Positions 44,773 through 50,584 of a DNA stretch of 50,584 nucleotides are shown here, piece by piece. The notes beneath the pieces were generated by a model, which made no database searches, was not told where the DNA came from, and saw nothing but the letters and a program-made list of their open reading frames with translations. This stretch comes from Thermoanaerobaculia bacterium (GTDB lineage Bacteria; Acidobacteriota; Thermoanaerobaculia; UBA5066): NCBI GenBank assembly GCA_022071945.1, contig JAJVIN010000044.1, positions 1-50,584 of the forward strand, read 5' to 3'. The stretch's first letter is position 1. Each line of letters opens with the position of its first letter. The position numbers and the translations under genes are program-made.

Positions 44773-45541
44773 CGGAAAGTTCCTCGTCTTCCAGAGGTTC
44801 CAGGGAGGGTTTCTCTCGGCGGGCGCGGGCGGCGATCTTCTCCGCGCGGGCCGCGAGCCGGGCCGGGTCCCGGGCGAACCTTGCAGGGGAGGGGATCATG
44901 GCCGCCAGGCGGGCCGACTGCGCGGGGTTGAGCTGGCTCGCGGGGATGCCGAAGTACTTGCGCGCGGCGGCCTCGCAGCCGTAGGTGGTCTCGCCCCATT
45001 CGATCGCGGAAAGGTAGATCTCGAGAATCCTCGCCTTGCCGAGGACGAGCTCCATCGTGATCGCGATCGCAGCCTCCCGTGCCTTCCGGAACATCGATCT
45101 CTCCGGAGAAAGGTAGAGGTTCTTGGCGAGCTGCTGCGTGATCGTCGAGGCGCCCAGACGCCGCTTCTTCCCGCGCGCCTCCTGCTTCTTGTTGTATTCG
45201 CGGGCCTTGGCGATGGCGTCTGGATCGATTCCCCGGTGAGTGAAGAAGCGGGCGTCCTCGGCGGTGATCACGGCGCGAATGAGGTGGGGAGAGACCCTTG
45301 AAAGTGGCACGGGCCGCCGGTCGATTCTCGCCGGCTTCCCTTCTTTCTCGAGCCGGTCTTTTCTCGCCTCGATGAAGGCCGTGGACCCAGGGTCGCGGAC
45401 GCGCAGGAGGAGAATCGCCGGGACCGGGATCACGTACCCGAAGACGGCGAGAAAAAGCAGGGCGCCAAACCCGAGGGAGAAGCGCCGCCACTTCTTCCGT
45501 CTGTTCACGAGAATGCCCGCTGCGGAAGGCCGATCAGCCAA
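44759..45541 (-). CDS. mtgA: Monofunctional peptidoglycan glycosyltransferase
   Basis: GT51 enzyme that polymerises lipid II into glycan strands. 260 residues. One N-terminal membrane anchor (about 21-44), then the catalytic domain: AEDARFFTHRG (catalytic E95), GASTITQQLAKNLYLSPERS (129-148), KARILEIYLSAIEWG (second Glu E174) and GCEAAARKYFG. No transpeptidase domain follows, so it is monofunctional. The C-terminus is rich in Arg and Glu. It overlaps the previous gene by eight bases and the next by 14 bases. Confidence 0.96.
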   Translation of the reverse strand: MADRPSAAGILVNRRKKWRRFSLGFGALLFLAVFGYVIPVPAILLLRVRDPGSTAFIEARKDRLEKEGKPARIDRRPVPLSRVSPHLIRAVITAEDARFFTHRGIDPDAIAKAREYNKKQEARGKKRRLGASTITQQLAKNLYLSPERSMFRKAREAAIAITMELVLGKARILEIYLSAIEWGETTYGCEAAARKYFGIPASQLNPAQSARLAAMIPSPARFARDPARLAARAEKIAARARREKPSLEPLEDEELSDEER

Positions 45542-46889
45542 CGACCTCCGTCAGCGCGGCGCGAAGTCTCTGGACTCCGAGAAGGGCATCCTCCTTGGTG
45601 AGGGTCAGGGGGGGACGCAGCCGGATCGCCTTCTCGCCCGAGGCGAGGCCCATCACGTTGTGCTTCTGGAGCCAGGAAGCGAGCACCTTGCCCCGGGTCG
45701 CTCCATCGGGAAGGTCGAAGGCGATGAAGAGTCCCCTGCCTCGGATGTTCGTCATCTTGCCCGGGAACTCGAGCGAGAGCTCGAGGAGCTTGCCCATGAG
45801 GAACTCACCCACGACGCGCGTGTTTTCCACCAGGTTCTCCTCGACCATGATCTCGAGGAACCGGCGGCACCTCACCATGTCGACGAGGCTGCCGCCCCAC
45901 GTCGAGTTGATGCGCGAGGAGACGGTGAAGACGTTGTCCGGCTCCTGGTGAATCCGGTCGTTGGAGGCAAAGCCGCAGACCTGGGTCTTCTTCCCGTACG
46001 AGAACATGTCGGGTTCGACTCCGATCCCCTGCCAGCCCCACATGTGGCCCGTCAGTCCCATTCCGGTCTGGACCTCGTCGACGAGGAACATCATGTCGTT
46101 CTCGTCACAGAGCTCTCTCAGCTTCCGGAAGAACTCCGGCCTGAAATGGTTGTCTCCCCCCTCGCCCTGGATCGGCTCGACGAGAAGGGCCGCGATGTCG
46201 TCCCTGTTATCGGCCAGGGCCTGTTTGATCTGGGCAATGGCGAGCTCCTCGCGGGAGATCGTCGCCTCGAGGCTCTCGGGGGTGAGGGGGAAGGTCAGCT
46301 TGGGGTTGACGATTCTGGGCCACTGGAACTTCGGGAAGTACATCGTCTTCCGCGGGTCGGCGGTGTTCGTGACGGAGAGCGTGTAGCCCGACCGGCCGTG
46401 GAAGGCCTGCTCGAAGTGGATGATCTGCGTGCCAACCTCGCGGCGGTACCCCTTCTTGAAGTTCCTCCGGATCTTCCAGTCAAAGGCCGCCTTCATCTGG
46501 TTCTCGTTGGCGAGGGCCCCGCCCTCGATGAAGAACATGTGCCGGTTGTGCGAGTCCGGGACCGCGAAACGGGAAAACGTCTCGACGAACTCGGCCATCT
46601 GCTGGGTGTAGATGTCGCTGTTCGCCGGCTTCGTCACCGCCGCCCAGGCCAGCTCCTCGAGGAACTCAGGCGTCGTCATCTTCGGGTGGTTGTACCCGAC
46701 CGGACACGTCGCGAAGTTCGAGAAGAAGTCCAGGACCTCGACGCCGTGAAGCGAGTCGAAAACAAAGTTCCCGTGGGATCTTCGGAGATCCATGACGATG
46801 TGGTATCCGTCCACGAGGATGTGTTTACTCAAGGAGTCCAGGACGTTCTTGGGCTCCACGTGCACGCGAGTGGGCGATGCGGTCGACAT
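45534..46889 (-). CDS. lat: L-lysine 6-transaminase
   Basis: Class III PLP enzyme that moves the epsilon-amino group of lysine to 2-oxoglutarate, giving 2-aminoadipate semialdehyde (which cyclises to piperideine-6-carboxylate). 451 residues, family-typical. SGYTLSVTNT, LLVEPIQGEGGDNHF, MMFLVDEVQTGMG and SYGKKTQVCG (PLP lysine K300 or K301) mark it; the FFSNFATCPVGYNHPKM opening is that of Lat rather than ornithine or GABA transaminases. Known Lat proteins serve in cephamycin synthesis and in stationary-phase mycobacteria. Here it sits inside a group with a GT1 and an Asn-synthase-like gene, with no dehydrogenase for the semialdehyde nearby. Confidence 0.93.
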   Translation of the reverse strand: MSTASPTRVHVEPKNVLDSLSKHILVDGYHIVMDLRRSHGNFVFDSLHGVEVLDFFSNFATCPVGYNHPKMTTPEFLEELAWAAVTKPANSDIYTQQMAEFVETFSRFAVPDSHNRHMFFIEGGALANENQMKAAFDWKIRRNFKKGYRREVGTQIIHFEQAFHGRSGYTLSVTNTADPRKTMYFPKFQWPRIVNPKLTFPLTPESLEATISREELAIAQIKQALADNRDDIAALLVEPIQGEGGDNHFRPEFFRKLRELCDENDMMFLVDEVQTGMGLTGHMWGWQGIGVEPDMFSYGKKTQVCGFASNDRIHQEPDNVFTVSSRINSTWGGSLVDMVRCRRFLEIMVEENLVENTRVVGEFLMGKLLELSLEFPGKMTNIRGRGLFIAFDLPDGATRGKVLASWLQKHNVMGLASGEKAIRLRPPLTLTKEDALLGVQRLRAALTEVVG

Positions 46890-46962: not shown

Positions 46963-48171
46963 CTAGCAGCCCGGTTCCGGCTCTCTGGATCCAGTCACGA
47001 GGCTCTCGACGAGCCGGGCCGCCGCCTCCGCCCCGTCCTGGCGCCGATACGAGTCCTGCACGCGGCGCGCCGCGGTCCGGATGGGCGAAGCTTCCTCAAG
47101 AAGGAGCTTCAGGGCCGAGCGGGTTTCCGCCACGCTCGACTGGTAGAGGTCGAGAGCGAGCCCCGCCCCACTCCGTTTGAGGAAGAACGCCTGGAGGGGC
47201 TGGTCGTTGCAGACCGGACTGATCAGGAGCGGGACCCCGTGAGAGAGCGCCTCCATCACCGAGTTGGCCCCGCCGTGGGTCACCATCGCCGAGACCCGTG
47301 GGAGGAGCGCCAGCTGCGGTGCGTACCGGACCGCGATGACGTCCCCCGGAAACGGGGAACCCGCGAGATCACCCGCGCTGAGAATGACCTGAACTCCGAG
47401 CGTTCTCGCGGCCTCGGTCACTTTCCAGAAGATCTCGGGCTGGTAGGAGATCTGGCTTCCGTAAGAGACGTACAGGAGGGGTTTGTCTTTCGAGAGCCTC
47501 TCCCACGGGAACCCGGGCTCGTCTCCGCGGAGGCGCTTGGGAAGGGATGGTCCGACGAGCCTCACCCCGGGTGGGACCTCAATGCCAGAGACGTACTCGG
47601 TGGTCGAAAAGACCGTGGTGAAAGTGGAGGGCAGAAAGTCACAGACGCGGAATCTGGGTGTCAGACCCAGGCCAGCGAAGAGCTGGTCTCGTTCCTCGGC
47701 GTGTGATCGGATGTTGTGGAGGTGCGGGACGTCGAGGTCTTCCGGAGTGACCGGGTTGAGGGAGGACGAGACCGCGCCAAAAGGGATCCTCTCGAGGTGG
47801 GCGGCCAGAATCACCTGGTAGAGCATCGGATCGGTCGCGATCGCGTCGGGCGCCGAAGCGCGCAGCGCGGCGCGCACCGGTTCGATCTGAGCGGGGACCG
47901 GGTCGAGCAGGAGACCGCGGATCCAGCCCCGCAGGCAGTGCGGGTTCCGCACCAGATCCGCGAGCTCGGGTCCAGAGGTCGCCAGTGCCGGCCGTGCCAG
48001 GCTCGAGAGGGGCTCGAGGACCTCATCCGCGAGCGCCTCCATCTGGGGCGACGCCTCCGGAACGGCGAGCCACAGGACCCGGTGACCACGATCCTTCAGC
48101 TTCTGGGCGAGCGGGGCGAGCGGGTTGACGTGGCCCTTTTCGGGACTGGAGGCGAGAAGAAATCGAGCCAC
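46963..48171 (-). CDS. GT1 (UDP-glycosyltransferase/MGT-type) glycosyltransferase
   Basis: Cytoplasmic GT-B fold enzyme of 402 residues that decorates small molecules. The N-terminal half opens with FLLASSPEKGHVNPLAPLA, the acceptor-binding loop with the presumed catalytic His (H14). The C-terminal half has the nucleotide-sugar signature THGGANSVMEALSHGVP (H299) and a following SPVCNDQPLQA segment. This is the pattern of natural-product (macrolide, glycolipid) glycosyltransferases. The donor and acceptor are not predictable. The gene starts seven bases after the Asn-synthase-like gene, probably in one operon. Confidence 0.92.
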   Translation of the reverse strand: MARFLLASSPEKGHVNPLAPLAQKLKDRGHRVLWLAVPEASPQMEALADEVLEPLSSLARPALATSGPELADLVRNPHCLRGWIRGLLLDPVPAQIEPVRAALRASAPDAIATDPMLYQVILAAHLERIPFGAVSSSLNPVTPEDLDVPHLHNIRSHAEERDQLFAGLGLTPRFRVCDFLPSTFTTVFSTTEYVSGIEVPPGVRLVGPSLPKRLRGDEPGFPWERLSKDKPLLYVSYGSQISYQPEIFWKVTEAARTLGVQVILSAGDLAGSPFPGDVIAVRYAPQLALLPRVSAMVTHGGANSVMEALSHGVPLLISPVCNDQPLQAFFLKRSGAGLALDLYQSSVAETRSALKLLLEEASPIRTAARRVQDSYRRQDGAEAAARLVESLVTGSREPEPGC

Positions 48172-48178
48172 GTGGGTC

Positions 48179-49531
48179 TCAGAGAGAAGCGGAAAGGAGC
48201 CTCAGGGAATGGAGCCGGAAGAGCGTCCGCTCGGACTCGGCGGAGTAGGGGCCGTCCCTGAGGGCGGAGACGTGTCCCTCGATGGTGGCCCGGTCCAGAC
48301 CGGCCAGAGCGAGGGTATCTCTGTTGGCCGGGAGCGAGGCGAACTCGTCCAACCAGGCCGCCCGGACGTGCTCTTCCGCTGAGGAGAGAGACAAGGGCCG
48401 GGGGAACTTCCGAAGGAGCCGGATCTCGTCGGGTAACAGAGAGCTCACGGCCCACCTCAGAACGAGCTTCCCGAGATTCCCATCTGTCCTCAGGTGCATG
48501 GGTAGGGCAGAGCCGAAGTCGACGATCCGCTGGTGCAGGTAGGGAGCGTAAACCGAGAGCCCGTGAGCCTGCGCCGGCCGGACCTCGGCGGGCACGGTCA
48601 GCTCGGGCAGAACCTCGCGAAAGACCCGGGCCTGTCCAGAGGAAAGGGGTGTGGCGGAACCAGGTGGTGCCCACGCGCGAAGAGACTGCGGATCGCCGGC
48701 GAAGACCTCGTCGGCGCCGAGACCGCTGATCACACGGTTGAAGCCGTCCGCCGCGATTGCGTGGAATGCCTGGAACTTGGCGGCGGGAAGCGGACTCCAG
48801 CCAAGATCTTCCATGGCCCTCACCGTGGCCGGAAAGACGGCTGGCAGCTCCTCGGGGATGATCCGGACCGTCTTCCATGAAGCGCGTGCCCGGGCGGCCG
48901 TCGCTTCGGCGCGGGCCAACTCGGCATCGTCGCCGGGCAGCCCCGTGTGGAAGGTGTAGGCGGTGAGCGGACCGAGTCCTGCTTCGGCGGCGATCATGAG
49001 AAGGGCTCCGGAGTCGAGGCCGCCGCTGAGAAGAAAGGCTGTCTTGCGAGGCTCGAAAGAGGCCCTGACGGCTTCCGCCAGGAGGGATTTCAGAAGACGG
49101 GCCCCTCCCTGCGGGTCGACAGGCCCCGATGCAGGCTGGAAAAGGGGAGCCTTCAGGGCCCTCGAACAGGTGACACTTCCTGGGTCGCTTCTCAGAGAGA
49201 AACCGGGCCGCAGCTTTCGGATCAACTCGAAGATCGAGGATCCCGGCTGGAGCTCTCCGCGAACGGCGCGCCGCACCCGGAGGGTGTCGAGACGTCCGGG
49301 GAGCTCGGCTGCCAGCCGGACCATCCGCGCCGAGGAACCCGCATGAAGGAGGTCCTTGCCGAGCAGGTAGAAAATGCGGCGAATGCCTAAGAGGTCGCAG
49401 CCGAGGGCAAAGCCGCCGTCGCGAAGAGGAAAGGAGTCGATCCAGCCCGAGAGCGAGGCCGTGCTGTGAGGTACGCCGTCGCCGGCGGCCGGATCCTGAC
49501 TTGGTCCCTGGAGACTCACCTCGTTGACCAT
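48179..49531 (-). CDS. Asparagine-synthase-like ATP-dependent amide ligase
   Basis: 450 residues. The C-terminal half is an AMP-forming synthetase: PP-loop SGGLDS (169-174), a SGLGADEVFAGD block (about 267-278) and RKFPRPLSL. The N-terminal about 130 residues look like a reduced glutaminase domain; the Cys2 nucleophile of true asparagine synthases is absent (it starts MVNEV), so it does not use glutamine as AsnB does. Such degenerate forms make lactams in lasso peptides and beta-lactams, or adenylate carboxylates in other pathways. ATG at 49531 has GCAGG six bases upstream; its first 66 bases overlap the radical SAM gene on the other strand. First of a seven-gene row. Confidence 0.88.
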   Translation of the reverse strand: MVNEVSLQGPSQDPAAGDGVPHSTASLSGWIDSFPLRDGGFALGCDLLGIRRIFYLLGKDLLHAGSSARMVRLAAELPGRLDTLRVRRAVRGELQPGSSIFELIRKLRPGFSLRSDPGSVTCSRALKAPLFQPASGPVDPQGGARLLKSLLAEAVRASFEPRKTAFLLSGGLDSGALLMIAAEAGLGPLTAYTFHTGLPGDDAELARAEATAARARASWKTVRIIPEELPAVFPATVRAMEDLGWSPLPAAKFQAFHAIAADGFNRVISGLGADEVFAGDPQSLRAWAPPGSATPLSSGQARVFREVLPELTVPAEVRPAQAHGLSVYAPYLHQRIVDFGSALPMHLRTDGNLGKLVLRWAVSSLLPDEIRLLRKFPRPLSLSSAEEHVRAAWLDEFASLPANRDTLALAGLDRATIEGHVSALRDGPYSAESERTLFRLHSLRLLSASL

Positions 49532-50272
49532 TGCAACCTGCGTTGCCGGGAGTGTTGCACGATTTCGCCGTTTCTTCCTCCCTGGTCAGTCGACCCCACG
49601 GACCTGGAAGACGACCTGCGCAGGGCCGCCGAGGTCCTTCGGCCGAGTCTCTTCAAGCTGACCGGAGGGGAGCCCCTGCTCCACCCTCGACTTCTCGAGT
49701 GTGTCGAGGCCGTGAGAAGGTCCGGGATCTCCCCTCAGATCTCCCTGACCACGAACGGCTTTCTCCTCCTGAAGGCTCCACGCGCCCTCTTCCGCGCGTT
49801 GGACCGGATCACCCTTTCCGTGTATTCATCCGCCCCGATACCGGAGCGAGTCCTCGCCCGTATCCACGACAGGTGCGACGAAGCCGGGGTGCTCCTCAAT
49901 GTGAAGGAAGTGAGCGAATTCCAGGTCATGACGCCCGAGGAGGTGCCGCAGTCTCGAGAGGCAGCGCTTCAGACCTTCTCGAGCTGCTGGATGAGGGAGC
50001 GGTGTCATCTGCTCTATCGGGGGAGCTTTTACACGTGCACGCGGCCCCCTCACCTGGCGTCTCTTTACGATCTGGATGTGTCCGACGGCGTTCGCCTCGA
50101 CGGACCGAACCTCCTGGATCGCGTCCTGGAAACGCTCGAGCGCGAGGCGAGCCTCGAGTCTTGCCGCTACTGCCGCGGCACGACCGGACCCTACCGAACC
50201 CACCAGCAGATAAGAGGGGACACGGATCTGGCGGGGGAGAGCGAACGCGAGAACGCCTCGTCTGGGGCGTGA
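49466..50272 (+). CDS. Radical SAM enzyme with a C-terminal Cys-rich (SPASM/twitch-like) region
   Basis: 268 residues. The AdoMet cluster motif is C23-x3-C27-x2-C30 in HCNLRCREC; LTGGEPLLHP (65-74) and SLTTNGFLLL complete the core. A second Cys group (C174, C180, C191, C233 and C236) fits one auxiliary Fe-S cluster, as in peptide-modifying SPASM or twitch enzymes. GTG at 49466 is preceded by GCGAGG seven bases upstream; no later start keeps the SAM site intact. The first 66 bases overlap the antisense start of the Asn-synthase-like gene. No precursor peptide gene is visible in the 91 bases before the next feature. Confidence 0.9.
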   Translation: MRYAVAGGRILTWSLETHLVDHCNLRCRECCTISPFLPPWSVDPTDLEDDLRRAAEVLRPSLFKLTGGEPLLHPRLLECVEAVRRSGISPQISLTTNGFLLLKAPRALFRALDRITLSVYSSAPIPERVLARIHDRCDEAGVLLNVKEVSEFQVMTPEEVPQSREAALQTFSSCWMRERCHLLYRGSFYTCTRPPHLASLYDLDVSDGVRLDGPNLLDRVLETLEREASLESCRYCRGTTGPYRTHQQIRGDTDLAGESERENASSGA

Positions 50273-50363: not shown

Positions 50364-50584
50364 TCAGGGCGGGGTGGCAGGGAGAAGCCCGAGGTCTCCC
50401 AGCTCGGGGAGCCGCCGGCCCGATCCCTCGCTCCTTGCGTGTCCGCCGAATCGCCATCGATTGTGGTCGATCCACCGGTCGATGAAGGCACGGCTCCCCA
50501 GGATCACGCCTTCAGAGAGGTATCGAATCCGGTGCCGGAGGGCGGCTCCCGCGGGCAGATGTCCCTCTTTCGCCTCGACTTCGG
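50364..50584 (-). CDS. C-terminal part of a REP-associated (RAYT) transposase, cut by the window end
   Basis: The minus frame is open from the last bases of the window to a TGA at 50364-50366 and gives 72 residues: LRHRIRYLSEGVILGSRAF, then FGGHARSEGSGRRLPELGDL. This is the C-terminal pattern of IS200-like RAYT proteins (LRxRVRYFxDGxVLGSRxFV...FGxxRxxGxRxL...LRDL). The catalytic HUH and Tyr motifs lie beyond the window. RAYTs are domesticated, usually single-copy and linked to palindromic REP elements. Confidence 0.7.
   Translation of the reverse strand, partial: EVEAKEGHLPAGAALRHRIRYLSEGVILGSRAFIDRWIDHNRWRFGGHARSEGSGRRLPELGDLGLLPATPP

Follow-up and report, generated by a model that had tools for sequence, protein, structure and literature searches.

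A patchily distributed cassette of radical SAM, asparagine synthetase-like and GT1 glycosyltransferase genes in Acidobacteriota and Verrucomicrobiota, a candidate for tailoring a carbohydrate-containing small molecule

The window analysed here is the whole stretch of 50,584 nucleotides, which makes up an entire contig (C43) in a draft assembly of 6.17 Mb from a Thermoanaerobaculia bacterium (Acidobacteriota). Towards its right end we identified the following features:

45534-46889, minus strand: L-lysine 6-transaminase (LAT; TIGR03251, 588.8 bits, cut-off 520.8)
46963-48171, minus strand: GT1 glycosyltransferase of the macrolide/YjiC/OleD/CalG group (UDPGT, E 1.8e-17)
48179-49531, minus strand: asparagine synthetase-like (AsnS-like) ligase, a glutaminase-less ATP-pyrophosphatase of 450 aa (PF00733, E 2.9e-34)
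49466-50272, plus strand: twitch-domain radical SAM enzyme (rSAM) of 268 aa, sister group of SpeY/HygY (PF04055, E 1.1e-10)
50364-50584, minus strand: C-terminal part of a RAYT/Y1-type transposase, left over where the contig ends, assigned by eye, with no profile match for this part

These profile matches bear out the four enzymes named in a preliminary description of this DNA where it had placed them, except that the range given there for the whole set, 46963-50272, encloses rSAM, the AsnS-like ligase and GT1 but leaves LAT just outside, about 74 bp downstream of GT1 on the same strand. The head-to-head layout noted there was likewise recovered: the AsnS-like and rSAM genes are divergent and their 5' ends overlap by 66 bp (AsnS ATG at 49531, rSAM GTG at 49466), residues 1-3 from the GTG start being identical in a relative. 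The cassette proteins share 35-61% identity with those of a second acidobacterial genome (G005), which speaks for the genes being coding. As had also been remarked, no precursor peptide, transporter or peptidase gene is present at the cassette; the window stops at 50584 and so lacks the right flank.

Our cassette searches covered about 1,850 genome look-ups. Of 396 acidobacterial genomes, only two have orthologues of rSAM and of the AsnS-like ligase, and they are the same two for both: the window genome and G005, a member of its family; the remaining matches are weak and not orthologous. The GT1 orthologue is found in these same two genomes out of 61. LAT, which had been proposed as a fourth member of the set, behaves differently: it is present in 44 of the 61 relatives, occurs almost throughout the class, and keeps 70-80% identity among members of the family. 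In G001, G002, G003 and G008 a GAF-like gene lies upstream of LAT with no cassette in between, and in these four relatives, the ones that we inspected, LAT lies together with mtgA, lipoprotein and glgA genes. The cassette is thus inserted between LAT and the GAF gene, which adjoin each other in cassette-free relatives, and LAT is a housekeeping neighbour outside it.

The block lying between the GAF and LAT genes in G005 and in the window genome, where it is spread over contigs C27 and C43, comprises a MoxR-like ATPase, an M48-like protein, a 184-aa protein, a PaaK-like AMP ligase, rSAM, the AsnS-like ligase and GT1; in G005 it additionally ends with a PIG-L gene, which is missing from the cassette of the window genome. 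Both contigs end in Y1/RAYT-like transposase sequence (by eye at window positions 50364-50584 on C43, and at L078 10979-11174 on C27). C27 breaks off after the N-terminal half of a Y1_Tnp gene that adjoins the PaaK-like gene, and this repeat probably broke the assembly. A search for an exact overlap between C43 and C27 found none, so their adjacency is deduced from synteny and from the transposase sequence at both ends. The PaaK-like AMP ligase, whose window-genome copy lies on C27, is 47% identical between the two acidobacterial genomes. We did not count it in the cassette, as it is translationally coupled to the MoxR/M48-like genes and the verrucomicrobial loci described below do not have it; that it is a part is possible.

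A first lead outside Acidobacteriota came from a scan of genome collections, which returned a piece of an rSAM gene from Verrucomicrobiaceae (record L036). Among 387 genomes of Verrucomicrobiales we found one rSAM fragment and four full orthologues, with E values between 1e-73 and 1e-80; a phylum-wide verrucomicrobial sample that had no positive control yielded no further copies. Three loci are complete (G456, G503 and G536) and consist of a seven-gene operon coding for rSAM, a glutaminase-less AsnS, a full AsnB, GT1, GT2, a 263-282-aa protein and PIG-L, mostly joined by ATGA-type stop/start overlaps. The fourth (G620) is cut at a contig end after rSAM, AsnS and AsnB. Since the cassette of G536 has other genes around it, a common genomic setting cannot account for the linkage of these genes. 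Neither LAT nor PaaK is present in the verrucomicrobial loci. The grouping put forward in the preliminary description therefore recurs outside the window genome as far as rSAM, the AsnS-like ligase and GT1 are concerned (in G005 and in the three complete verrucomicrobial loci, with rSAM and AsnS also on the contig-edge fragment of G620), but not for LAT. Concerning the 263-282-aa protein, no family match was found; a reading by eye of its 268-aa version as a ROK/ASKHA-type kinase (DVGQ..K, NDAELAA, GFGVGGA) found no support from profiles or PDB sequences and was dropped.

In two Verrucomicrobia (L179 8125-17559; L180 7597-17576) the operon is flanked by genes for nicotinate phosphoribosyltransferase (NAPRT) and a nicotinamidase-like protein; Nudix and ADP-ribosylglycohydrolase-like genes lie close by, and in G456 the NAPRT and rSAM genes overlap by 4 bp. 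Truncated rSAM remnants occur in two verrucomicrobial genomes (L036 2168-2293; L182 9791-10159), where genes for ADP-ribosylglycohydrolase, a macro-domain protein or NAPRT are close; this hints that the operon has decayed.

The rSAM protein aligns over its full length with PDB entries 7wzv, 7wzx and 7x0b, entitled 'Twitch Radical SAM Dehydrogenase SpeY' (E 5.6e-41). Its predicted structure (pLDDT 89; an earlier model built on two sequences was set aside at pLDDT 47) superposes end to end on SpeY with a Z score of 32.6 and an rmsd of 1.6 over 254 residues. The next-best structural match is BtrN (Z 15.7), and radical SAM enzymes of RiPP pathways reach Z scores of about 11-13. The cysteines of the RS cluster, C23-C27-C30 (CxxxCxxC), are invariant in 26 aligned rows, as are, among 26 aligned relatives, the four putative ligands of the auxiliary cluster, C174, C191, C233 and C236; this bears out the auxiliary Cys group noticed at the outset. 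One auxiliary cluster is what defines a twitch domain (PMC9012708). By sequence and predicted fold, rSAM thus goes together with SpeY, HygY and BtrN, enzymes acting on carbinols of small molecules. Judging from its neighbours only, it would act on a carbinol carbon of a sugar or cyclitol.

Two further cysteines bear on the likely chemistry. The six cassette enzymes all have Cys at position 180, which aligns with Cys183 of a HygY-like enzyme from a Streptomyces (SAT1) plasmid, and with Ser183 of SpeY. We take position 183 to be the catalytic Cys of HygY, which donates the hydrogen atom, and Cys180 would then be the putative donor in the cassette enzymes; for HygY, exchange of the Cys for Ala is reported to turn one outcome, epimerisation or dehydrogenation, into the other. 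Epimerisation may therefore be the likelier outcome, with dehydrogenation as the alternative; the argument is suggestive only, since a Cys at this position is also common in phage relatives. The second residue, Cys31 (CxxxCxxCC), is invariant in the six cassette enzymes and confined to them, being absent from the known enzymes. In the tree, the six form a clade of their own (96/93) standing beside, and not inside, the separate SpeY/HygY clade (100/99). Given this separation and the invariant extra Cys31, their chemistry may differ from that of SpeY and HygY.

Relatives of rSAM are found in several other contexts. The plasmid relative, which is full-length, lies in a hygromycin-B-like cluster, adjoining APH(7'')-Ia, DegT aminotransferases and a phytanoyl-CoA-type dioxygenase. 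We also observed relatives on 213 IMG/VR contig stretches (80 loci kept, L086-L165), of which about 20 are nearly full-length; these are phage-borne HygY/SpeY-like twitch enzymes. Another acidobacterial rSAM, in the SpeY/HygY group and with the Cys, adjoins a sulfatase gene (L040 9078-10247 and 7652-9046). MAGs of Anaerolineaceae and Desulfobacteraceae (L033 8716-11804; L035 8697-11778) share another conserved cassette, whose three genes code for a glycosyltransferase-like protein, a twitch rSAM (CNLNCKGCSHFAP) and a methyltransferase.

The AsnS-like ligase of the window carries the PP-loop motif of ATP-pyrophosphatases, LSGGLDS at residue 168, together with SGLGADEVF at 269. Of the glutaminase domain only the C-terminal half is left, and the glutaminase deficiency proposed from the start is borne out by the lack of a Pfam GATase domain and of the N-terminal Cys2 of glutamine-dependent asparagine synthetases. 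The AsnS-like proteins as a group retain LSGG[LI]DS and a C-terminal Lys and Arg, and lack Cys2. Glu348 is a residue of known role in AsnB; the aligned position holds Leu or Ala in Acidobacteriota and Asp in Verrucomicrobia. This domain content excludes glutamine hydrolysis by the protein itself, so that an external amine or ammonia would be needed. Searched against plasmids, it gave no match. GT1 aligns best with natural-product glycosyltransferases of the OleD/YjiC/CalG type. The closest named solved relatives of PIG-L are the teicoplanin (Orf2*) and Dbv21 pseudoaglycone deacetylases.

We consider it somewhat probable that a small molecule with a carbohydrate part is tailored by a small cassette of patchy distribution, with GT1, the AsnS-like ligase and rSAM at its core, the product being most likely an aminoglycoside- or pseudo-disaccharide-like glycoside. 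In the order of steps that we infer, GT1 would take an NDP-activated sugar, probably one with an N-acetylated amino group, and attach it to a hydroxyl of the acceptor, and PIG-L, where present, would take off the acetyl group. The 5'-deoxyadenosyl radical of rSAM would then abstract hydrogen from a ring carbinol carbon. Either Cys180 would return a hydrogen atom from the opposite face, giving epimerisation as in HygY, or an electron would pass to the auxiliary 4Fe-4S cluster, giving a ketone as in SpeY and BtrN, the chemistry of the last being taken from PMC9012708. Finally, the AsnS-like ligase would adenylate a carboxylate with ATP and couple it to an amine, perhaps that of the freed amino sugar, to form an amide. 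Within the cassettes, to which this inspection was confined, there are no genes for sugar-nucleotide synthesis, cyclitol or aminocyclitol formation, resistance or export, so that a whole aminoglycoside would be beyond the cassette alone; it resembles part of such a pathway and falls short of the gene content of a complete one. We found no known pathway that matches this gene set, as the preliminary description had supposed, nor any account of such a cluster in a literature search whose reach took in little of the subscription literature.

A rather unlikely alternative is that the cassette acts on a glycan or glycolipid of the cell surface instead of a diffusible small molecule: GT1 and GT2 would build the glycan, PIG-L deacetylate it, rSAM alter sugar stereochemistry, and AsnS/AsnB turn a sugar acid into its amide or add an amino acid. 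Elsewhere in bacteria, enzymes of the AsnB type amidate sugars of the cell surface, the more distant twitch enzymes of L033 and L035 adjoin glycosyltransferases and methyltransferases, and the lack of exporter and resistance genes fits too; however, GT1 falls in a natural-product group, PIG-L is closest to pseudoaglycone deacetylases, and no polymerase, flippase or lipid-carrier transferase lies nearby. That the product derives from a nucleotide or NAD, with rSAM perhaps acting on ribose, seems improbable: the NAD-salvage genes that flank two verrucomicrobial operons, the 4-bp overlap with NAPRT and the remnants at similar loci in two further genomes speak for it, but neither G536 nor the two acidobacterial genomes show such a context. 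Even less credible is the suggestion, made at first sight, that rSAM and the AsnS-like ligase mature a RiPP whose precursor is encoded elsewhere. Both superfamilies are used in RiPP pathways, and models of macrolactam and lasso cyclases gave weak cross-matches, but the fold sides with SpeY far more closely than with RiPP enzymes, there is no PqqD-like leader-binding domain, peptidase or precursor gene in the window cassette, and the mostly overlapping verrucomicrobial genes leave a precursor no space. Finally, a supply by LAT of a lysine-derived aminoadipate-semialdehyde or pipecolate-type unit to the ligase can practically be dismissed, since LAT, despite its same-strand position downstream of GT1 and, in G005, beyond PIG-L, is conserved with or without the cassette, is split from its GAF partner by it, and is missing from the verrucomicrobial loci.

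Twitch enzymes that epimerise or oxidise carbinols have been described for only a few aminoglycosides, from actinobacteria and Bacillus. Under the glycoside-tailoring reading, a sister subfamily linked to GT1, PIG-L and a glutaminase-less AsnS in two other phyla would point to glycoside chemistry that we have not found described there. We put forward more tentatively that Acidobacteriota and Verrucomicrobiota make a new class of glycoside natural products or surface sugars by pairing, in a way not described before, this radical SAM sugar epimerase subfamily (CxxxCxxCC) with a glutamine-independent AsnS-like ligase. The cassette is a compact gene set for expression, and Cys180 and Cys31 offer a natural test of the choice between epimerase and dehydrogenase.

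Among known systems, SpeY of spectinomycin biosynthesis (PDB 7wzv) shares with the cassette enzyme its whole-protein fold, the RS and auxiliary cysteines and a conserved C-terminal CxxCxG/HxQ motif, but identity is about 30% and the cassette enzyme has Cys180 in place of Ser, the extra Cys31 and a clade of its own. HygY, the hygromycin B epimerase of Besandre et al. (2021, doi 10.1021/jacs.1c05727) as cited in PMC10991966, has the same fold family and a Cys at aligned position 183. The SAT1 cluster also has a glycosyltransferase adjoining its rSAM; in contrast, the window cassette has no aminotransferase, dioxygenase or resistance gene, and the SAT1 stretch no annotated AsnS-like ligase. BtrN, the 2-deoxy-scyllo-inosamine dehydrogenase of butirosin biosynthesis (PDB 4m7t), matches in its twitch fold and four-Cys auxiliary cluster, but with only 15% identity. 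Compared with asparagine synthetase B, beta-lactam synthetase and CarA, the cassette ligase lacks the glutaminase half and differs at the Glu348 position, but retains the SGGLDS PP-loop and the C-terminal Lys. Lastly, although the cassette of the window genome has no PIG-L, the PIG-L of the other cassettes finds its closest named solved relatives in the deacetylases acting on the pseudoaglycones of teicoplanin and A40926.
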